DNA of 64,000 nucleotides from Paeniglutamicibacter psychrophenolicus. GTDB lineage: Bacteria > Actinomycetota > Actinomycetes > Actinomycetales > Micrococcaceae. The stretch is taken from NCBI RefSeq assembly GCF_030812255.1, contig NZ_JAUSSH010000007.1, forward strand, positions 62,001-126,000, written 5' to 3'. How positions within the stretch are numbered: position 1 is the first letter of the stretch; each line of letters begins with the position of its first letter. This document shows, one piece after another, positions 6,997-20,131 of the stretch. A program made the position numbers and the translations under genes. The notes below the pieces were generated by a model that saw nothing but the letters and a program-made list of their open reading frames with translations, was not told where the DNA came from and made no database searches.

Positions 6997-9102
6997 GTGG
7001 CCAAAAGCGCTGACTACAACGCCCGACACCTATCCGTCCTGGAGGGGCTCGAGGCGGTTCGCAAACGTCCGGGCATGTACATCGGATCCACCGACTCGCG
7101 TGGACTGATGCACTGCCTGTGGGAAATCATCGACAACTCTGTCGATGAAGCCCTCGCCGGCCACGGACAGTCCATCAAGGTCCTCCTGCACCCGGACGGA
7201 TCGGTGGAGATCCACGACGACGGCCGCGGCATCCCGGTGGACATCGAGCCGAAGACCGGGCTCTCCGGTGTCGAGGTTGTCTTCACGAAGCTCCACGCCG
7301 GCGGCAAGTTCGGCGGAGGCTCCTACACCGCTTCCGGCGGCCTGCACGGCGTGGGCGCCTCCGTGGTCAACGCGCTTTCGGCGCGCCTGGACGTCGAGGT
7401 GGACCGCGGCGGCAAGACCTACGGGATGCAGTTCCGCCGCGGCGAGCCCGGCCGCTTCACCGACTCGGGCAAGCCCAAGCCCGACACGGCCTTCGAGCCG
7501 TTTTCCACGGCCTCGGTCCTCGATGTGGTGGGCAAGGCCAAGCGCGGGGTCACCGGAACCCGCGTGCGGTACTGGGCCGACCGCCAGATTTTCACGCCCG
7601 ATGCCAAGTTCTCCTACACGGAGCTGCAGGCCCGTGCCCGCCAGACGTCCTTCCTGGTGCCGGGCCTGAAGATCACGTTGCGCGACGAGCGCGGCCTGGC
7701 CGACACCCTGGGGGCAGACGGCCCCTACGAGGAGGTCTTCCACCACGACGGCGGGATTTCCGAGTTCGTGGAGTACCTGGCCAACGACGCAGCGGTCACC
7801 GACATCTGGCGTTTCCACGGCTCGGGTACGTTCAAGGAATCGGTGCCCGTCATTGACGAGTCCGGCCACAGCAGGATCACCGAGGTCGAGCGCACCTGCG
7901 AGGTCGACATTGCCCTGCGCTGGGGGATTGGCTATGAGACCTCCCTGCGCTCCTTTGTGAACATCATCGCCACGCCCAAGGGCGGCACCCACCAGACGGG
8001 CTTCGAGCAGGCCCTGCTGAAGACCTTCCGCAAGGTCATCGAGGCCAATGCCCGCAAGCTCAAGGTCGGCAACGACAAGATCGAGAAGGACGACGTCGGT
8101 GCCGGGCTCACCGCAGTGCTGACCGTTCGCCTGGCCGAACCGCAGTTCGAGGGCCAAACCAAGGAGATCCTGGGCACCTCCGCGGTGCGCCAGATCGTGG
8201 CCAAGGTCGTGGAAAAGAGCCTGGCGGCAAAGCTGAACTCGACCGCCAAGGGCGACAAGACCCAGGCAGCGATGCTCCTGGAAAAGGTCGTCAGCGAAAT
8301 GAAGTCGCGCATCTCCGCGCGCGTCCACAAGGAAACCCAGCGGCGCAAGAACGCCCTGGAAACCTCTTCGCTTCCCACCAAGCTGGCCGATTGCCGCAGC
8401 ACCGACACCGAGAAGACCGAACTGTTCATCGTCGAGGGTGACAGCGCATTGGGCACCGCCCGGCTGGCGCGTTCCTCGGATTTCCAGGCGCTGCTGCCGA
8501 TCCGCGGCAAGATCCTGAACGTGCAGAAGGCCTCGGTGGCGGACATGCTCTCCAACGCCGAATGCGCGGCCCTGATCCAGGTCGTGGGGGCCGGCTCGGG
8601 ACGCAGCTTTGACATATCCGCGGCACGTTACGGCAAGGTCGTGCTGATGACCGATGCCGACGTCGATGGCGCGCACATCCGCACGTTGCTGCTGACGCTG
8701 TTTTTCCGCTACATGCGCCCCATGGTCGAGGCCGGGCGGGTCTACGCGGCCGTGCCGCCGCTGCACCGGGTCGAGGTCATCAACCACGGTGCCAAGGACA
8801 ACGAGATGGTGTACACCTATTCGGAGACCGAGCTGCACGAGGTGCTGGCCGCACTGGAGAAGGCCGGCAAGCGCTACAAGGAACCGATCCAGCGCTACAA
8901 GGGCCTGGGTGAGATGGACGCGGACCAGCTGGCCGAAACGACCATGGATCCACGCCACCGGACGCTGCGCCGGGTGGGGCTGGAACATGCGGAATCGGCC
9001 GAGCGGGTCTTCGACCTGCTGATGGGTTCGGATGTTGCGCCGCGCAAGGAATTCATCATCTCCGGTGCCGAACGCCTCGAGCGCGATCGCATCGACGCCT
9101 AG
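6997..9102 (+). CDS. parE: DNA topoisomerase IV subunit B (type IIA, ParE)
   Basis: ATPase subunit of a type IIA topoisomerase, 701 residues. The N-terminal GHKL ATP-binding domain shows KRPGMYIGS, the Mg-binding IIDNSVDEA segment and GRGIPVD. The TOPRIM domain carries EGDSALG near residue 480, PIRGKILNV, and the metal-binding DADVDGAHIRTLL near residue 550. Position next to sigA and upstream of parC fits ParE rather than GyrB, which normally sits near dnaA; this is inference from context. GTG start at 6997 with GAGGAG upstream. Together with the subunit A gene at 17474-20131 it would form the decatenating enzyme. Between them lies the cyd cluster. Confidence 0.93.
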   Translation: MAKSADYNARHLSVLEGLEAVRKRPGMYIGSTDSRGLMHCLWEIIDNSVDEALAGHGQSIKVLLHPDGSVEIHDDGRGIPVDIEPKTGLSGVEVVFTKLHAGGKFGGGSYTASGGLHGVGASVVNALSARLDVEVDRGGKTYGMQFRRGEPGRFTDSGKPKPDTAFEPFSTASVLDVVGKAKRGVTGTRVRYWADRQIFTPDAKFSYTELQARARQTSFLVPGLKITLRDERGLADTLGADGPYEEVFHHDGGISEFVEYLANDAAVTDIWRFHGSGTFKESVPVIDESGHSRITEVERTCEVDIALRWGIGYETSLRSFVNIIATPKGGTHQTGFEQALLKTFRKVIEANARKLKVGNDKIEKDDVGAGLTAVLTVRLAEPQFEGQTKEILGTSAVRQIVAKVVEKSLAAKLNSTAKGDKTQAAMLLEKVVSEMKSRISARVHKETQRRKNALETSSLPTKLADCRSTDTEKTELFIVEGDSALGTARLARSSDFQALLPIRGKILNVQKASVADMLSNAECAALIQVVGAGSGRSFDISAARYGKVVLMTDADVDGAHIRTLLLTLFFRYMRPMVEAGRVYAAVPPLHRVEVINHGAKDNEMVYTYSETELHEVLAALEKAGKRYKEPIQRYKGLGEMDADQLAETTMDPRHRTLRRVGLEHAESAERVFDLLMGSDVAPRKEFIISGAERLERDRIDA

Positions 9103-9186: not shown

Positions 9187-10149
9187 TCAGCTGAAGAGAC
9201 CCGGGGCCACCAGCATGGTGGTCGGCAGCGCCAGGAGCAGCAGCGCCGCCGCCAGGATCGTGGCGCGCAGGGCCGCGGACAGCGGCGGCTTGGGCGTCAG
9301 CAGGCGGCGCAGGCGATGCGAGGAAAGCTCCTCGGTCGGGGCGCCACCGGTCGCGGCGGCCGGCAGGGGTGCCGGGGACTTGCCGGACGGTTCGCCCAGG
9401 GCGCCGGTGGCAACCGTGAGCAGGGCACGCAACAGCACCGGGGCCTTGACCTCGCGCAGGGCTGCGTCGTCGGCAAGCATCTCGACCAGCTCCTGGACGG
9501 CGGCCAGCGACAACTTCGAGGTCGGCAGCCACGGCAGGGCGTCGTTCCACGAAGCGAAGGCCAGCAAGAGCAGGTCATGGCGTTGTTCCAGGTGGGCCTT
9601 TTCGTGGGCGAGGACCGCGCGCAGCTCCTCGGGGCTCAGCCGCTTGACCAGACCGCGGGAGAGCACCGTGACCGAGCCGGTGAAGCCCGGCAGGCAGTAG
9701 GCAATGGGCGTCTCGTGGTCCAGGACCAGCGTGCCGGGGGTGCCGGCGGACTCCTCGGTGAGCAGCGAAAGGATGTGCCGGTGCCGTGCCCGTTGGCGCG
9801 TGATGCGCCAGGCCGCCCGGATCAGGGTGAGGACCAGGTGGAAGCCCAGCAGGGCCGCGGTGCTCAGCGCAAAGATGTGGATGGTGCCGGGGGAGTTGGC
9901 CTCGGGGTCACCCAGGACGAGCCGAAGCCCGCCGCCAAGCGCTCCGATCAGGGTGTCGCCCAGCGGATCGAGGCCCCAAAAAAGAAGCGCTCCGATCATC
10001 GACAGCCCACCGGCCAGGGCGATGGCCTGCCACACGACCATCGCGGCAAAGGGGGATCTGGCGGTCCAGTGGGCGCGCGAAAGTGCGACGGGTATCGGCC
10101 ATGCAAGAAGCAAGGCGAGTCCCGCCAGAAGATAGGACGTCAGCAGCAC
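9187..10149 (-). CDS. M56 family membrane metallopeptidase (BlaR1-like, no sensor domain)
   Basis: A 320-residue membrane zinc protease. Hydrophobic segments lie at about 4-22, 36-58, 90-112 and near the C-terminus (about 290-318). The zinc motif HEKAH is at residues 182-186, with a probable third ligand Glu in VEMLADDAA near 223. This is the protease core of BlaR1/MecR1, in which it inactivates a BlaI repressor by cleavage. Unlike BlaR1 of Staphylococcus there is no penicillin-binding domain after the last membrane segment, so the signal it senses is unknown. It is the second gene of a leftward pair, 24 nt after blaI. Confidence 0.85.
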   Translation of the reverse strand: MLLTSYLLAGLALLLAWPIPVALSRAHWTARSPFAAMVVWQAIALAGGLSMIGALLFWGLDPLGDTLIGALGGGLRLVLGDPEANSPGTIHIFALSTAALLGFHLVLTLIRAAWRITRQRARHRHILSLLTEESAGTPGTLVLDHETPIAYCLPGFTGSVTVLSRGLVKRLSPEELRAVLAHEKAHLEQRHDLLLLAFASWNDALPWLPTSKLSLAAVQELVEMLADDAALREVKAPVLLRALLTVATGALGEPSGKSPAPLPAAATGGAPTEELSSHRLRRLLTPKPPLSAALRATILAAALLLLALPTTMLVAPGLFS

Positions 10150-10173: not shown

Positions 10174-10548
10174 CTAGGCGTTACGTGGGGTATCGAGGAG
10201 CAGGCGCAGGGACTGGGCTTCCTCGGCGGAGATCCCGCCGATGAAGCGCGCCAGCACGGCTTCGCGATCCAGCACGGTACCTAGTGCTTCGTTCATCAAG
10301 GACACGGTGTGTTCCTCGCGGCTTGTCACCGAGGTGTAACGGTGCGGGCGGATGTCGCGTTCGCGCGCCACCAAGCCCTTCTTTTCCAGCCTGGCCAGAA
10401 CCGTCAGGACGGTGGTCACGGCAAGTTCCTTGCTGTCGACGCCGCCGGGCGCCGCTAGCAGGTCGCGAAGTTCATTGGCCGTGAGCGGGGTTTCGGCATC
10501 CCAAAGTAGATCCATTACTGCGCGTTCAAGGTCGCCAAGAGTGGCCAA
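10174..10548 (-). CDS. BlaI/MecI/CopY family repressor
   Basis: A 124-residue winged-helix repressor. The N-terminal DNA-binding domain (about residues 1-80) has the BlaI family signature, starting with MATLGDLERAVMDLLW and including LAVTTVLTVLARLEKKGLV. The C-terminal part (about 85-124) is the dimerisation region, where BlaR1-type proteases normally cut. It is the first gene of the blaI-M56 pair and is divergent from cydA. Two strong palindromes of BlaI-like form (10659-10675 and 10677-10701) lie in the shared promoter region. It therefore probably represses itself and the cyd genes; this is inference. Confidence 0.88.
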   Translation of the reverse strand: MATLGDLERAVMDLLWDAETPLTANELRDLLAAPGGVDSKELAVTTVLTVLARLEKKGLVARERDIRPHRYTSVTSREEHTVSLMNEALGTVLDREAVLARFIGGISAEEAQSLRLLLDTPRNA

Positions 10549-10658
10549 TCTAATTCCTTACAAAGTGTTCCAGACCCCGTGCAGCTAACGCAGGGGTCAA
10601 CGGGCGGCACCATGGGCACCTCCCGTTAGGCACCAGTTTACCGTGTTCGGCCCGAATG

Positions 10659-10675
10659 TTCTACAGTTAGTAGAA
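10659..10675. promoter_or_regulatory. candidate BlaI operator O1
   Basis: Perfect inverted repeat TTCTAC-AGTTA-GTAGAA. BlaI-family operators are dyads containing TAC/GTA half-sites, so both sequence and position fit. A candidate -10 (TACAGT, 10662-10667) overlaps it, with a weak TTACCG 18 nt upstream. Bound repressor would block cydA transcription. Confidence 0.7.
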
Positions 10676-10676
10676 A

Positions 10677-10701
10677 CGAGTTCTACGATACGTAGAACTC
10701 G
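10677..10701. promoter_or_regulatory. candidate BlaI operator O2
   Basis: Perfect dyad with 11-bp arms (10677-10687 and 10691-10701) around a 3-bp centre, containing the same TTCTAC / GTAGAA half-sites as O1. Its centre is 22 bp from that of O1, close to two helical turns, so two dimers could bind on the same face. It lies about 50 bp before cydA. Confidence 0.75.
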
Positions 10702-10752
10702 GGGCGACGGGCCGACATTGCGCCCGCGAATTCCGGCAATGAAGGGCTTGGC

Positions 10753-12327
10753 ATGGATGCACTGGAAATTGCCAGATGGCAATTTGGTATCACCACCGTT
10801 TATCACTTCCTGATGGTCCCTCTCACCATTGGCCTGGGCCTGGTGGTCGCGGTGCTGCAGACCGTCTGGCACCGCACCGGCAAGGAAGAATACCTGCGCA
10901 TGACCAAGTTCTGGGGAAAGCTCTTCCTCATCAACTTCATCATGGGCGTGGCCACCGGCATCGTCCAGGAATTCCAGTTCGGCATGGCCTGGAGCGAATA
11001 CAGCCGGTTCGTCGGGGACGTCTTTGGCGCACCGCTGGCCATGGAAGCCCTGCTGGCATTCTTCGTCGAATCAACCTTCCTCGGGCTCTGGATCTTCGGC
11101 TGGGACAGGTTGCCCAGGCGCATCCACCTGGCCGCCATCTGGATCGCCTCGCTGGCCAGCATCCTCTCGGCCTACTTCATCCTCGTGGCCAACTCCTGGA
11201 TGCAGCACCCGGTGGGCACCGAAATGATCAACGGCCGGGCCGTGATGACCGACGCCTGGGCCGTGTTCACCAACAACACCGCCCTGGTCACCTTCCCCCA
11301 CACCATCTTCGGCGCCTTCGCGGTGGCCGGCGGATTCCTGCTGGGCATCTCCTGGTACCACCTGTACAGGCGCCGCCAATCCGGGATCGACACCGTCGAT
11401 GCCGACGGAAAGGTCGTGGTGGGGGAGTCCGCCACCCTGGGGAGGAACCGCGACAAGATCGACTACAGGGTCTGGATCAAGTCCCTGCGCATCGGTGCGG
11501 TCGTTGCCATGGTGGCCTTTGCGGGCGTTGCCCTTTCCGGCCACGCCCAGGCCCAGCTGATGATCCAGCAGCAGCCCATGAAGATGGCGGCGGCCGAAGC
11601 CGCATGCCACGACGGCACCGGATTCTCCCTGCTGTCCATCGGGGACCTGCGCAGCGGCGGGGCAACGACCTGCGACGACGTGGTCGGGGTGTTTGAGATC
11701 CCGGGACTGCTGTCCTTCCTCGCGCACGACAACTTCACCACCGAGGTCAAGGGCGTCAACACGCTGCTGCCGGAGTACCAGGAAAAGTACGGGACCCACC
11801 TGCCCGACAACCCGATCTACGGCGACCGCGCCGGAACCGAAATCAACTACCTGCCGGTCATGGAGGTCACCTACTGGGGCTTCCGCCTGATGATCACCCT
11901 CGGCGGCCTGTCGGCGGTGGCCGCCGCGGTGGCCCTGTGGCTGACCCGCAAGGGAACCGTGCCGCAAAGCCAATGGATCTCCCGGCTGGCACTGTTCGGC
12001 ATGCTGGCACCCTTCGGGGCCAACTCCGCCGGCTGGATCTTCACCGAGATGGGCCGCCAGCCCTTCGTCGTGGCACCCAACCCGAGCTTCGAGGGCATCG
12101 ACCAGGTGTTCATGTACACCGCCGCCGCAGTCTCCCCGGGAGTCAGCGCCGGGGAGATGCTCTTCTCGCTGATCGTCCTCACGCTGATCTACGCGGTCCT
12201 GCTCGTGGTCGAGGTCGTCCTGCTGACCCGCTACGTGCGCGGCGGCATCGGATCGGCCATGCCCGAACTGCACGACCGCCCCGACGGCAGCCAGAAGGAC
12301 ACCGACGTGCTGTCCTTCGCCTACTGA
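10753..12327 (+). CDS. cydA: cytochrome bd oxidase subunit I
   Basis: Haem-bearing subunit of the quinol-oxidising terminal oxidase bd, 524 residues, about nine membrane helices. The N-terminus has the conserved haem b595 ligand His18 in VYHFLMVPLTIGL, and near residue 430 the signature EMGRQPF, where most homologues have W in place of F. The Q-loop is of the short type common outside proteobacteria. Cytochrome bd supports growth at low oxygen and under respiratory stress. First gene of cydA-cydB-cydDC. A leader of about 50 bp separates it from the double palindrome that probably controls it. Confidence 0.97.
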   Translation: MDALEIARWQFGITTVYHFLMVPLTIGLGLVVAVLQTVWHRTGKEEYLRMTKFWGKLFLINFIMGVATGIVQEFQFGMAWSEYSRFVGDVFGAPLAMEALLAFFVESTFLGLWIFGWDRLPRRIHLAAIWIASLASILSAYFILVANSWMQHPVGTEMINGRAVMTDAWAVFTNNTALVTFPHTIFGAFAVAGGFLLGISWYHLYRRRQSGIDTVDADGKVVVGESATLGRNRDKIDYRVWIKSLRIGAVVAMVAFAGVALSGHAQAQLMIQQQPMKMAAAEAACHDGTGFSLLSIGDLRSGGATTCDDVVGVFEIPGLLSFLAHDNFTTEVKGVNTLLPEYQEKYGTHLPDNPIYGDRAGTEINYLPVMEVTYWGFRLMITLGGLSAVAAAVALWLTRKGTVPQSQWISRLALFGMLAPFGANSAGWIFTEMGRQPFVVAPNPSFEGIDQVFMYTAAAVSPGVSAGEMLFSLIVLTLIYAVLLVVEVVLLTRYVRGGIGSAMPELHDRPDGSQKDTDVLSFAY

Positions 12328-12358: not shown

Positions 12359-13381
12359 GTGGAATTCCTTCCCACCTTGTGGTTCATCCTGATAGCAGTG
12401 CTCTGGGGCGGCTACCTCTTCCTCGAGGGCTTCGACCTGGGCGTGGGCATGCTCATGAAGACCTTCGCCCGGAACGAGAAGCAACGCCGCGTGCTGCTCA
12501 ACACCATCGGGCCGGTCTGGGACGGCAACGAGGTGTGGCTGATCACCGCCGGCGCCGCGACCTTCGCCGCCTTCCCCTACTGGTATGCCTCGCTCTTCTC
12601 CGCCCTCTACGTCCCGCTGGTGCTGGTGCTCGTGGCACTGATCTTCCGTGCCGTGGCGTTCGAATACCGCGGCAAGGCCCACACCCGGACCGCGCGCAAC
12701 GCCTGGGACTGGGCGATCTGCCTCGGATCCTTCACCGCGGCGTTCGGTGTCGGGGCGATGCTCGCGCTGAGCACCACCGGACTGCCGCTGGACGCCAACG
12801 GCGACCGCGTCGGCGGGCCCTTCGCCTGGTTCAACATGTATGCGGTCCTGGGCGGGATCGGGGTCGTCGCCTTCTGCCTGGTCCAGGGCCTGGCATTCCT
12901 CGGGTTGAAGACCGACGGGGAGATCCGCACGCGGGCCGCCCGGATCCTGGCCCGCTGGCTCCCGCTGGCACTCCTGCCGCTGGCCGCGTGGGCGGTGGCC
13001 GTGGTGCTGCTGAACCACAGCGCCACGGCACTGGCCCCGCTGGGACTGGCCGTGTGCGCACTGGTGTTCGCCTGGATCCATGCCCGCAAGACCAACGAGG
13101 GCCTGGCCTTCACCGGGATGGGCATCTTCCTGCTGGCAGGGGTGGCGGCGATCTTCACGGCCGCCTACCCCAACGTGCTGCCCTCCACCATCGACGCCGC
13201 CTACAACCTGACCGTCGCCAACGCATCCTCCAGCCCCTACACGCTGGGGCTCATGAGCATCGTGGCGGCGTTCGGGCTGCCGCTGGTGCTGGCCTACCAG
13301 GGATGGACCTACTGGGTGTTCCGCAAGCGCATCAGCGAGGCCCACATCCCCGACGCCCACGCCGTGACCCCGATCGTCTGA
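12359..13381 (+). CDS. cydB: cytochrome bd oxidase subunit II
   Basis: Second integral membrane subunit of cytochrome bd, 340 residues with about eight hydrophobic segments. It starts with the typical CydB N-terminus (FLPTLWFILIAVLWGGYLFL) followed by EGFDLGVGML. GTG start at 12359, 31 nt after cydA. It forms the heterodimer with CydA and is in the same transcript. The next gene, cydDC, begins 25 nt downstream. Confidence 0.97.
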   Translation: MEFLPTLWFILIAVLWGGYLFLEGFDLGVGMLMKTFARNEKQRRVLLNTIGPVWDGNEVWLITAGAATFAAFPYWYASLFSALYVPLVLVLVALIFRAVAFEYRGKAHTRTARNAWDWAICLGSFTAAFGVGAMLALSTTGLPLDANGDRVGGPFAWFNMYAVLGGIGVVAFCLVQGLAFLGLKTDGEIRTRAARILARWLPLALLPLAAWAVAVVLLNHSATALAPLGLAVCALVFAWIHARKTNEGLAFTGMGIFLLAGVAAIFTAAYPNVLPSTIDAAYNLTVANASSSPYTLGLMSIVAAFGLPLVLAYQGWTYWVFRKRISEAHIPDAHAVTPIV

Positions 13382-13406: not shown

Positions 13407-16400
13407 ATGAAACCCGTACTGCCCGCAGGGACCGGATCGCGTATTGTGCTGGCACTGCTCGCCGGGCTGGCAGCGCTCAAGGCCATCGGGCTGATCCTGC
13501 TCGCCGATGCCCTGGCCACGGCCATCGCCCAGCTGGCCGGCACCGGCACCGCCGATGTGCAAAGGCTGCTGGCCCTGGGGCTTGCCGGCGCGCTGCTGCG
13601 CGCCGGCGCCGTCTGGGGCACCCAATTCGCGGCACGGCATGCGGGGCTTGGGTCCAAGGAGAAGCTGCGCGGGCAGCTCATGAACGCGGGCCTGTCCGGA
13701 AACGGTGCGGAAACCGGATCGGGCCAGGACCACGGGGCACTTGCGGCCCTGGCCAGCCGCGGGCTCGACGGATTGGACAACTACTACACCAAGTACCTGC
13801 CGGCCGTGGTCGCCGCAATGGTCGTCCCGGTCATGGTCGTGGCGCGGGTGCTGGTGGCCGACTGGGTCTCGGCCCTGGTGATCGTGCTGACCTTGCCGCT
13901 GGTTCCGGTGTTCATGATCCTCATCGGCCTGCATACCGTCGAACGGGTCAAGGCGGCCGCCGCCGGGCTGGACCGGCTGTCGAACCAGCTGCTTGAACTC
14001 GCCCAGGGCCTGCCGGCGCTGATCGGCCTGCGCCGGGCCAAGGGCAAGGGCCGCGCCCTGGCGCAGGTCTCCGAGGGATACCGGGAAAGCAGCATGAAAA
14101 CCCTGCGCACCGCATTCCTTTCCGGCCTTGCCCTCGAACTGATTGCCACGATCTCGGTGGCGGTGGTCGCGGTGTTCATCGGCGTGCGGCTGGTCTACGG
14201 GCACATGGGACTCGAAGCCGGGCTGCTGGCGCTGGTCCTGGCCCCGGAGGCCTACCTTCCGCTGCGCGAACTCGGTGCCGCCTACCACGCCTCCGAGGAC
14301 GGGGTCGAGGCGCTGGAACGCAGCGAAAAGTTCATCGCGGGCGGCACCCCCGAACCGGCTGCAGGTGCCACGAGGTGCCCGTCCGCGGCGAACGTGCTTG
14401 AAATCCGCAACCTCACGGTGCGCCACCCCGGACGCACCGAACCGGTGTTGGAAAACCTTGACCTCGAGCTTGGGCGCGGCCGGGTCCACGTCCTGGACGG
14501 GGCCAGCGGCACCGGCAAGAGCACGCTGTTGCATGCGGTGCTCGGGCAGCTTGCTGCAAGCGGCCTGGAGGGCAGCATCGCCGTGCGCCCCGAACGTGCC
14601 GCCTGGATCTCCCAGCACCCGCGGTTCACCGAGGAAACCGTGCGCGGCGAAATCATGCTCCACGCACGGAACCTGCTGGATGAAGCGGGCCTCGCCAGGG
14701 TGTGTGAAGATGCGAACATCACCCACCTGGCCGAACGCAGGCTCGTCGATTGCAGCCCGGGGGAATTGCGCCGCGTCGCAGTGGCCCGGGTGCTGGCCCG
14801 TGTTGCCACGGATCCCGACGTCGAACTGGTCCTGGCCGACGAACCGACGGCGCACCTCGACGAGGTCTCGGCCGCCCGCATCAGGGCGGCACTGAATCGG
14901 CTTTCGATTGGCTGTGCACTGCTCGTGGCAACCCATGACCGCGCGCTGGCGGCCTCGCTGCGCGGCCGGGATGCGCCCGCCGCCAGCCGTCCGGGGCCCC
15001 AGACCGGTTCGCAGATCCCGCGCCCGGGTGCACCCGAGCTCCGCTTGGACCAGGCGCCCGCTTCCAAGCGCACGCTGTGCCACTGGAACCTGCTGCGTTC
15101 GCTGCCGTGGTTCCGGGGCGGCCTGGGCCTGGGGTTGCTGCTGGCGGTGCTGGCCGCGCTCTTCGGCGTGGGCCTGACCGGGATTTCCGGCTGGCTGATC
15201 GTCACAGCCAGCCACCAGCCGCCCATGCTCCACCTGATGGTCGCCATCGTCGGGGTGCGCACCTTCGGCATCGGCCGCTCGGTGCTCCGCTACGCCGAAC
15301 AGCTCAAGATCCACGATGCGGTGCTGCGATTCTCCGGCAACCTGCGCCAGCGGCTCTGGGATGCGCTTGTCGCCCAACCGAAGATGTGGGGCGGGCTCAC
15401 CCGCTCCGGTGCGGCGCTGGGACACCTGGTGGCCGAGGTCGACGAGGTCCGCGATGCGGTTCCGCGGGTGCTGGTCCCGCCGGTTGCCGGCGTGGCCACC
15501 TGGGTCGTAGTCAGCATCGGGATCGGTTTCTGGGCGCCGCAGGCCCTGTGGCTGTCGCTGCTGCTGGGCGTGCTCGCCTTCGCCGCGCTTCCGCTGGCAG
15601 TGCTGGCCGCCGAAAAGCGCACCACCATTGCCGTGAGCGAACACCGCATCTGGCTGGGCTTCAGGGTCCCGACCCTGTTGCGGGCCGCGCCCGACCTGCG
15701 CGCCAACCATGCCGCAGGCACCGCCCTTGCGCGGTTCGCCGGTGAAGACGCCGAGGCGACGGCATCGCTCCGGGCCACGGCCCGCGGTGCGGGCCTGGCC
15801 CAGGGCGGCGCAGCCTTGCTCAGTGCCGTCGCCGCGGTGCTGGCCGTCGCCGTGACAACCGGCGGGGGAGAGGCAGCAGCCGTTGCCGGGCTGCTGCTCC
15901 TTGCCCTGGGCGAACCGATCGCCAACACCGCAACCTCGGTCCAGCAGCTGCCGCAGCTCGACGACGTGCTCAAACGCGTGTGGGCCAACATCGAGGCTGC
16001 CCCGGTTCACGCCCCGCCCGTGGACGAGGAAGCCCCGAGGCAGGACGGAGCCCGGCAACCCGCCATGGGCATCCGGCTCTCCAATGTCAGCGCGGGCTGG
16101 GATGAAAGCCTGCCGGTCATTGAACACGCAGACATCGAGGTTGAGGCAGGTCGCTGGGTGGGCCTGACCGGGGAATCCGGAGCCGGCAAATCAACCATTC
16201 TTGCCACGTTCCTGGGGGCCCTTCCGCCACTTGGGGGAACGGTGCAGGTCAAGCACCGCGGCGGCCGATGGATGGAAGCAACCCCCGCCGACCTGGCCGC
16301 GGTGTCCTGGTGCCCGCAGGAGGCGCATCTCTTCGATTCCACGGTCCGCTCCAACCTGTGCCTGGGCCGCGGCCTCGAGGATCAGCCCGGCGACGGCGAG

Positions 16401-16742
16401 CTGGTGGCCGTGCTGGAGCAGGTGGGCCTGGGCCGGTGGATTGAGGCACTGCCCGGCGGTCTGGAGCAGCGCATCGGTTCCGGCGGACACCACCTCTCGG
16501 GCGGGCAGCGCCAGCGCCTGGCCGTGGCCCGCGCACTGGTCGCCCGCTCCGCGGTGCTGCTGCTCGATGAGCCCACTGCCCACCTCGGTGCCGATGAGGC
16601 AGTGGAACTCATGGAGGACCTGCGCGGGGCGCTGCGCGACCGCGCGGTGCTCGTTGTCACCCACGATGCCACCGTTGCGGCCCTCGCCGACAACGTCGTG
16701 GACCTGGCCGAGCTGAAGACCGGGGTACCGGTGGGCGTCTAG
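13407..16742 (+). CDS. cydDC: fused CydD-CydC heterodimeric ABC exporter
   Basis: Single 1111-residue chain containing both halves of the thiol/haem-linked ABC exporter needed to assemble cytochrome bd. Half 1: membrane domain about 10-300, then an ATPase with Walker A GASGTGKST and Walker B LVLADEPTAHLD. Half 2: membrane domain about 560-830, then an ATPase with Walker A GESGAGKST, signature LSGGQRQR and Walker B VLLLDEPTAHL. The first half's ABC signature is degenerate (SPGELRR in place of LSGGQ). Fusion of the two proteins is seen in other actinobacteria. ATG 13407 with AGGAGAAG upstream; a hairpin at 16751-16796 ends the operon. Confidence 0.95.
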   Translation: MKPVLPAGTGSRIVLALLAGLAALKAIGLILLADALATAIAQLAGTGTADVQRLLALGLAGALLRAGAVWGTQFAARHAGLGSKEKLRGQLMNAGLSGNGAETGSGQDHGALAALASRGLDGLDNYYTKYLPAVVAAMVVPVMVVARVLVADWVSALVIVLTLPLVPVFMILIGLHTVERVKAAAAGLDRLSNQLLELAQGLPALIGLRRAKGKGRALAQVSEGYRESSMKTLRTAFLSGLALELIATISVAVVAVFIGVRLVYGHMGLEAGLLALVLAPEAYLPLRELGAAYHASEDGVEALERSEKFIAGGTPEPAAGATRCPSAANVLEIRNLTVRHPGRTEPVLENLDLELGRGRVHVLDGASGTGKSTLLHAVLGQLAASGLEGSIAVRPERAAWISQHPRFTEETVRGEIMLHARNLLDEAGLARVCEDANITHLAERRLVDCSPGELRRVAVARVLARVATDPDVELVLADEPTAHLDEVSAARIRAALNRLSIGCALLVATHDRALAASLRGRDAPAASRPGPQTGSQIPRPGAPELRLDQAPASKRTLCHWNLLRSLPWFRGGLGLGLLLAVLAALFGVGLTGISGWLIVTASHQPPMLHLMVAIVGVRTFGIGRSVLRYAEQLKIHDAVLRFSGNLRQRLWDALVAQPKMWGGLTRSGAALGHLVAEVDEVRDAVPRVLVPPVAGVATWVVVSIGIGFWAPQALWLSLLLGVLAFAALPLAVLAAEKRTTIAVSEHRIWLGFRVPTLLRAAPDLRANHAAGTALARFAGEDAEATASLRATARGAGLAQGGAALLSAVAAVLAVAVTTGGGEAAAVAGLLLLALGEPIANTATSVQQLPQLDDVLKRVWANIEAAPVHAPPVDEEAPRQDGARQPAMGIRLSNVSAGWDESLPVIEHADIEVEAGRWVGLTGESGAGKSTILATFLGALPPLGGTVQVKHRGGRWMEATPADLAAVSWCPQEAHLFDSTVRSNLCLGRGLEDQPGDGELVAVLEQVGLGRWIEALPGGLEQRIGSGGHHLSGGQRQRLAVARALVARSAVLLLDEPTAHLGADEAVELMEDLRGALRDRAVLVVTHDATVAALADNVVDLAELKTGVPVGV

Positions 16743-17473: not shown

Positions 17474-20131
<2,658 letters not shown>

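Follow-up and report, generated by a model that had tools for sequence, protein, structure and literature searches.

A palindrome shared by blaI, cydA, and respiratory genes as a candidate BlaI operator for respiration and haem synthesis in Micrococcaceae

In Paeniglutamicibacter psychrophenolicus, a BlaI-type repressor gene lies divergent from the cytochrome bd genes, and the gap between them holds both exact copies of the palindrome TTCTAC-N5-GTAGAA found in the window (the whole 64-kb stretch of DNA that was analyzed). These dyads are very probably BlaI operators and part of a genome-wide regulon of respiration and haem genes, which BlaI would repress and which an adjacent M56 protease would release by cleaving BlaI.

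Paired dyads between blaI and cydA

The blaI gene (positions 10174 to 10548, minus strand) encodes a Penicillinase_R repressor that passes the curated cut-off of PF03965 (75.6 versus 22.6 bits) and is the sole member of that family detected in its own genome, by a single match. The protein missed the NCBIfam cut-offs for BlaI_of_BCL (25 versus 180) and CopY_TcrY (29.5 versus 121.95). Its best PDB match is 2g9w (E value, 1.8e-19), which we take to be Rv1846c of Mycobacterium tuberculosis. The plus strand carries cydA (10753 to 12327; cytochrome bd subunit I; PF01654, 508 bits), cydB (12359 to 13381; subunit II; PF02322, 337 bits), and a cydDC fusion, one open reading frame (ORF) of 1111 amino acids (13407 to 16742) that scored above the cut-offs of both TIGR02857 and TIGR02868. 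GyrB/ParE-like (6997 to 9102) and GyrA/ParC-like (17474 to 20131) genes, named by eye, border the blaI-cyd block, and in 32/52 BlaI loci the DNA fetched included the GyrB-like gene.

A preliminary description of this DNA had placed two dyads with TTCTAC/GTAGAA half-sites between the divergent blaI and cydA genes, and their positions and sequences confirm this. Dyad 1 (candidate operator O1; 10659 to 10675) reads TTCTAC AGTTA GTAGAA, an exact palindrome, and dyad 2 (candidate operator O2; 10677 to 10701) contains the conserved core TTCTAC GATAC GTAGAA at 10681 to 10697, from which the palindrome extends to 11-bp arms; neither has a strand. When the gap of the window was aligned with those of nine near relatives, both TTCTAC/GTAGAA pairs were invariant in all 10 sequences, as was an AGTTTAC block at 10635 to 10641, while the spacers and the outer arms, including those of dyad 2, varied. 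Among 71 exact sites located 5′ of blaI in 50 loci, the spacer was nearly information-free apart from its outermost bases. The dyad centers (10667 and 10689) lie 22 bp apart, as previously described, although the suggestion that two helical turns are the rule does not extend to relatives: the spacing is 22 to 23 bp in the nine near relatives and 18 to 26 bp or at least 35 bp elsewhere, and a strict two-turn phasing rule was therefore rejected.

The palindromes could instead form RNA hairpins, acting as a terminator or attenuator, and one terminator-like match was found on the minus strand at dyad 2. However, the conserved part consists of the 6-bp half-sites and their 5-bp spacing, the long arms and a T-run are not conserved, and dyads are found 5′ of genes on either strand. 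We regard a hairpin function as extremely improbable and rejected it because conservation is confined to the half-sites.

The arrangement of the gap is consistent with a repressor that would act on both genes. No consensus sigma-70 promoter was called in a promoter scan of the gap. A candidate cydA −10 element assigned by eye, TACAGT (10662 to 10667, plus strand), lies within dyad 1, and five of its six columns are invariant in the 10 aligned gaps, with the sixth nearly so. The AGTTTAC block is a candidate cydA −35 element, a candidate blaI −10 element (TAAACT on the other strand), or both. Dyad 1 would thus cover the probable cydA −10 region, with dyad 2 just downstream, and BlaI bound there would block the polymerase. 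The dyad pair also faces blaI, so that BlaI on it would shut down cydABDC and at the same time restrain its own production.

Co-occurrence of the dyad with BlaI

If the dyad is the operator of this repressor, it should accompany blaI across genomes. A total of 52 loci were found by BlaI similarity, and 50 of them were scanned upstream of blaI (L097 and L098 were omitted, as their BlaI is encoded elsewhere). An exact dyad was located 5′ of blaI in 44/50 loci and a dyad with at most one mismatch in 47/50; the three loci without one carry a BlaI of 40 to 45% identity. A candidate palindromic operator is thus present and conserved in the promoter region of blaI itself. Where cydA is divergent from blaI, the exact dyad is present without exception (34/34 loci), so that the dyad is retained before cydA in relatives, a check that the preliminary description had proposed.

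The dyad also follows BlaI at the level of whole genomes. In 61 genomes of the family, with close BlaI homologs defined by an E value of up to 1e-30 (a threshold set by us), at least two exact dyads were present in 52/52 genomes with a close BlaI and in 0/9 of the others (Fisher's exact test, 6e-11, with genomes treated as independent of phylogeny). The three genomes with a distant BlaI have one exact dyad each, and the six without a BlaI match have 0, 0, 0, 0, 0, and 1, the single retained dyad belonging to G059. Two BlaI matches contain one internal stop codon: that of G043 (C1:238043-238402; one of the 52), where four exact dyads are kept, and that of G044 (C1:592131-592475), where one is kept.

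A sample of 197 genomes from the class, counted by hand, gave a similar picture: in families f1, f4, and f21, which were grouped after the table had been seen, the dyad was found in 22/22 genomes with BlaI and in 0/3 without it. Exact dyads occurred in 3/172 genomes of the other families, although 95/172 have some match to the BlaI family. Within genus g37, three genomes with BlaI have two dyads each, and two genomes without BlaI have none. Sites matching at least 10 of the 12 half-site bases lay within 350 bp of blaI in 19/21 loci of f1, f4, and f21, although exact dyads lay within that distance in only 3/14 loci of f21. For BlaI groups near or under 50% identity, no operator was found in the nine loci searched (L323 to L331), three of which held weak 10/12 sites. 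The dyad therefore seems to serve a single BlaI subgroup as its operator, not BlaI proteins in general.

These data bear on the possibility that another regulator binds the dyad and BlaI is a mere neighbor. hmp and other predicted targets (see below) have dedicated regulators in other bacteria, which would fit a different binding protein. Against this, several lineages without BlaI also lack the dyad, a pattern seen even within genus g37, and the dyad stays with blaI where cydA was not found: in nine Nesterenkonia loci whose fetched stretch lacks cydA, an exact dyad precedes blaI in eight, and a dyad with one mismatch precedes it in the ninth. We consider a different binding protein unlikely. 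Under the preferred reading, BlaI recognizes the dyads and controls cydABDC and its own gene, as the preliminary description had proposed; this is strongly supported by co-occurrence and footprinting, both by sequence comparison.

A predicted regulon of respiration and haem genes

A genome-wide pattern search, also suggested by the preliminary description, returned six exact dyads and 11 with one mismatch in P. psychrophenolicus. Both counts exceed expectation, which was 0.03 exact and 1.3 one-mismatch copies under an independent-base model and 0 and 0.3, respectively, in three Markov simulations, each using the base composition of the window. The pattern read backwards, serving as a control, yielded three exact copies in the same genome. 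With up to two mismatches, the reversed control (210 matches) outnumbered the dyad pattern (83), and the 66 two-mismatch matches were therefore not used. Across the 61 family genomes, hand sums gave 284 exact dyads versus 28 for the reversed control. With a simple gene caller, 14/81 sites fell well within an ORF, and several of these ORFs are evidently wrong, as they span the cyd/blaI promoters.

The 17 sites of P. psychrophenolicus with at most one mismatch occupy 16 places. Two sites (L010 and C23:18486) fall inside coding sequence; they were discounted as probably due to chance. The remaining sites precede cydA/blaI, the flavohaemoglobin gene hmp (L006:1501-1517), a PNPOx-like gene, a Usp gene, a membrane protein gene with a CopC-like gene behind it (an exact site at C12:47690, L384:2501-2517), sucC, a DUF3054-like gene, ctaE-qcrCAB (with trpD divergent), a run of ABC genes ending in ctaA (this site also lies within an over-long reverse ORF of the gene caller), ctaB, lpd (at a distance of about 260 bp), hemA/hemE, a phosphatase-resA-ccdA-resB run, and atpI of the ATP synthase. 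The CopC-like, DUF3054, ctaA, qcr, ccdA, resB, and atpI genes were named by eye. By our count, 10 of the 14 places that remain are assigned to respiration, haem, or the tricarboxylic acid (TCA) cycle. The hemQ gene has no site directly upstream in this genome and is located in the run behind hemE. The hmp dyad separates hmp from an Rrf2/NsrR-like gene (named by eye), and nitric oxide control and BlaI control may meet there. A CopC gene also adjoins a dyad in two further genomes (G017 and G012), which hints at a copper supply for oxidases.

To view the targets across genomes, 78 fetched regions from 15 genomes, with 93 exact sites, were surveyed. This is a subset of the existing sites: the survey took 4/6 exact sites of P. 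psychrophenolicus, 2/5 of G053, and 6/10 of G008 and skipped G019, which is near-identical to G047. The genes most often beside the dyads were blaI (12 regions), hemQ (11), cydA (10), hmp (8), a small membrane protein without a Pfam match (8), and PNPOx (6), followed by an ABC gene and another unnamed membrane protein (3 each) and ctaC, qcrC, a truncated-haemoglobin-like gene, CopC, YceI, and a SufR-like gene (2 each). Single regions include SURF1, sdhC, ctaB, a ResA-like gene, isocitrate lyase, and atpI; as the reference proteins were drawn partly from the same site regions, categories seen in a single genome are circular. Eight of the 78 regions matched no reference protein.

Pfam or NCBIfam models support HemQ, HemA, HemE, CtaE, CtaB, SucC, COX2, SURF1, Sdh_cyt, CopC, ICL, YceI, PNPOx, Usp, and the cytochrome c domains of QcrC. 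Hmp scores high yet under the equivalog cut-off, and the truncated haemoglobin and AtpI, named by eye, had no Pfam match. Some dyads precede genes of no known respiratory role (Usp, PNPOx-like, and YceI). The small membrane protein has an exact dyad close to its 5′ side in eight genomes (e.g., L143:2075-2467 and L363:2009-2437; the two proteins scanned gave no Pfam match) and may be an unnamed respiratory factor.

Sites were also sought directly upstream of selected targets, at a threshold of at least 11 of the 12 half-site bases, within 480 bp of hemQ, ctaE, sucC, and hemA and within 1500 bp for the ATP synthase (30 loci were returned from 31 genomes). Among BlaI-positive genomes, a site was found for hemQ in 19/27, ctaE in 12/27, sucC in 12/26, hemA in 7/27, and the ATP synthase in 12/26, in counts that include the discovery genomes and concern targets chosen after sites had been seen there. 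Ten of the 12 ATP synthase sites read TTCTAT-N5-GTAGAA; the position relative to atpI was checked in P. psychrophenolicus alone. In genomes that lack BlaI or carry a distant one (G011), the corresponding counts were 0/3, 0/3, 0/4, 0/3, and 0/4. At the same threshold, 59 permuted palindromes gave a mean of at most 0.03 loci and a maximum of one, and control regions downstream of the genes gave none for hemQ, sucC, and hemA and 3/27 for ctaE. Many BlaI-positive genomes have no site at a given target, and no exact dyad was among the sites of ctaE and the ATP synthase.

A narrower explanation is that BlaI controls blaI and cydABDC only, the remote dyads being chance matches or sites of other factors. 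Tandem sites are indeed located at cyd/blaI, and 11 of the 17 sites in P. psychrophenolicus carry a mismatch. Yet the same genes are preceded by sites in different genera, controls were near zero, the BlaI-negative genomes tested had no such site, and a single BlaI was found in P. psychrophenolicus; so restricted a role for BlaI seems improbable. The presence of the same palindrome before haem synthesis and respiratory genes in many relatives suggests instead that this BlaI, of a family mostly known for its role in penicillin resistance, here controls respiration. The link between blaI and cytochrome bd in the preliminary description is thereby supported, but a private link is too narrow, as the dyad also marks genes for haem, cytochrome oxidase, ATP synthase, succinyl-CoA ligase, and flavohaemoglobin. 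The predicted regulon would comprise the bcc-aa3 oxidase, haem synthesis, haem O/A synthesis, cytochrome c maturation, the ATP synthase, succinyl-CoA ligase, and flavohaemoglobin.

The M56 protease and related systems

Beside blaI lies a gene for an M56/BlaR1-like membrane zinc protease without a sensor domain (9187 to 10149, minus strand). The protein falls below the PF05569 cut-off (25.2 versus 31 bits), and its M48 score is higher (43.5 bits). It carries the zinc motifs HEKAH and EMLADD (of the HEXXH and EXXXD types); both motifs are present in all 26 relatives examined, and two His residues, both Glu residues, and the Asp residue are invariant in an alignment of 25 sequences. A sequence search against PDB gave no useful match. 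With an AlphaFold model of long helices (pLDDT of 84.8), Foldseek ranked BlaR1 entries 1 to 5 in the PDB (probability of 1.00), at TM-scores of only 0.33 to 0.38, with Ste24/ZMPSTE24 (M48) close behind (probability of 0.97 to 0.99). The chain of 320 amino acids stops past its last long hydrophobic helix, as judged by eye and from the model, and the C-terminal extracellular beta-lactam sensor domain is therefore absent.

The family names, together with a beta-lactamase that mycobacterial BlaI regulates (PMC5473688), would suit a beta-lactam response system that stands beside cyd by coincidence. The missing sensor domain speaks against it and led us to reject it; moreover, no beta-lactamase occurred among the 29 neighbor proteins scanned, which are part of the neighbors. 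A beta-lactam response is thus highly unlikely. Proteolytic derepression by the M56 protease is plausible for the respiratory regulon, by analogy: the protease would cleave BlaI, and so lift repression, when a signal carried by the membrane reports on respiration or haem. Because the chain ends after the last long helix, sensing would have to take place within or close to the membrane or fall to a partner. The trigger might be failing respiration or a shortage of haem, a guess by analogy with BlaR1 of Staphylococcus aureus.

The closest known system appears to be BlaI-BlaR of M. tuberculosis (Rv1846c-Rv1845c), the source of the best PDB match. According to an eLife paper (PMC5473688), the mycobacterial BlaR likewise lacks a beta-lactam sensor domain, and BlaI occurs at the cytochrome bd and ATP synthase promoters (Sala et al. 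2009, as cited there). PMC7924339 places blaI in the IdeR iron regulon, and PMC7058343 reports blaR as essential on haem or haemoglobin iron by TnSeq. The systems differ in that exact TTCTAC-N5-GTAGAA is rare outside the three class families (3/172); the proximity to cydABDC and the targets among haem and oxidase genes emerged in the present analysis, although the overlap with the 2009 regulon may be larger. BlaR1-BlaI of S. aureus also pairs a Penicillinase_R repressor with an adjoining membrane zinc protease bearing HEXXH and EXXXD, whereas the M56 protein described here has no C-terminal penicillin-sensing domain and the targets predicted here are those of respiration. In Corynebacterium glutamicum, HrrSA (PMC7337898) is a functional parallel and likewise a single regulator of haem synthesis, the respiratory chain, and terminal oxidase choice, but it is a two-component system with a haem-responsive kinase, whereas the present system is a repressor-protease pair.

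The name BlaI does not occur in the main text of either of two reviews, one on haem regulation (PMC10991733) and one on mycobacterial terminal oxidases (PMC7719681). Among the matches listed in searches on BlaI and respiration or haem, no paper concerned BlaI in Micrococcaceae, and a search for BlaI with hemQ returned none. Within those listings, the view that the link was undescribed stands for Micrococcaceae and not for mycobacteria, where BlaI at cytochrome bd and ATP synthase is in print. What appears new is the operator in Micrococcaceae, its reach, the haem synthesis targets, and its loss together with BlaI; the BlaI-cyd link has a mycobacterial precedent.

A broader reading, which we offer tentatively and would not call probable, is that one BlaI, paired with an M56 protease that has no sensor domain, acts as a switch responding to haem or respiration status over much of the aerobic chain, including haem synthesis, both terminal oxidases, and the ATP synthase, in Micrococcaceae and related actinobacteria. 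The pair would then do the job of HrrSA, and this might be the older role of BlaI-M56 in the phylum, with beta-lactamase control coming later. For actinobacteria of soil and food, a large group, the analysis names a candidate regulator of both respiration and the supply of haem, and its exact operator and predicted targets can be tested directly. Two mycobacterial reports, one placing BlaI at the promoters of cytochrome bd and the ATP synthase and the other finding that blaR is needed on haem, may share a common frame here. Should the proposal be true, BlaI-M56 pairs in many actinobacterial genomes would be a respiration switch and not a sign of penicillin resistance.
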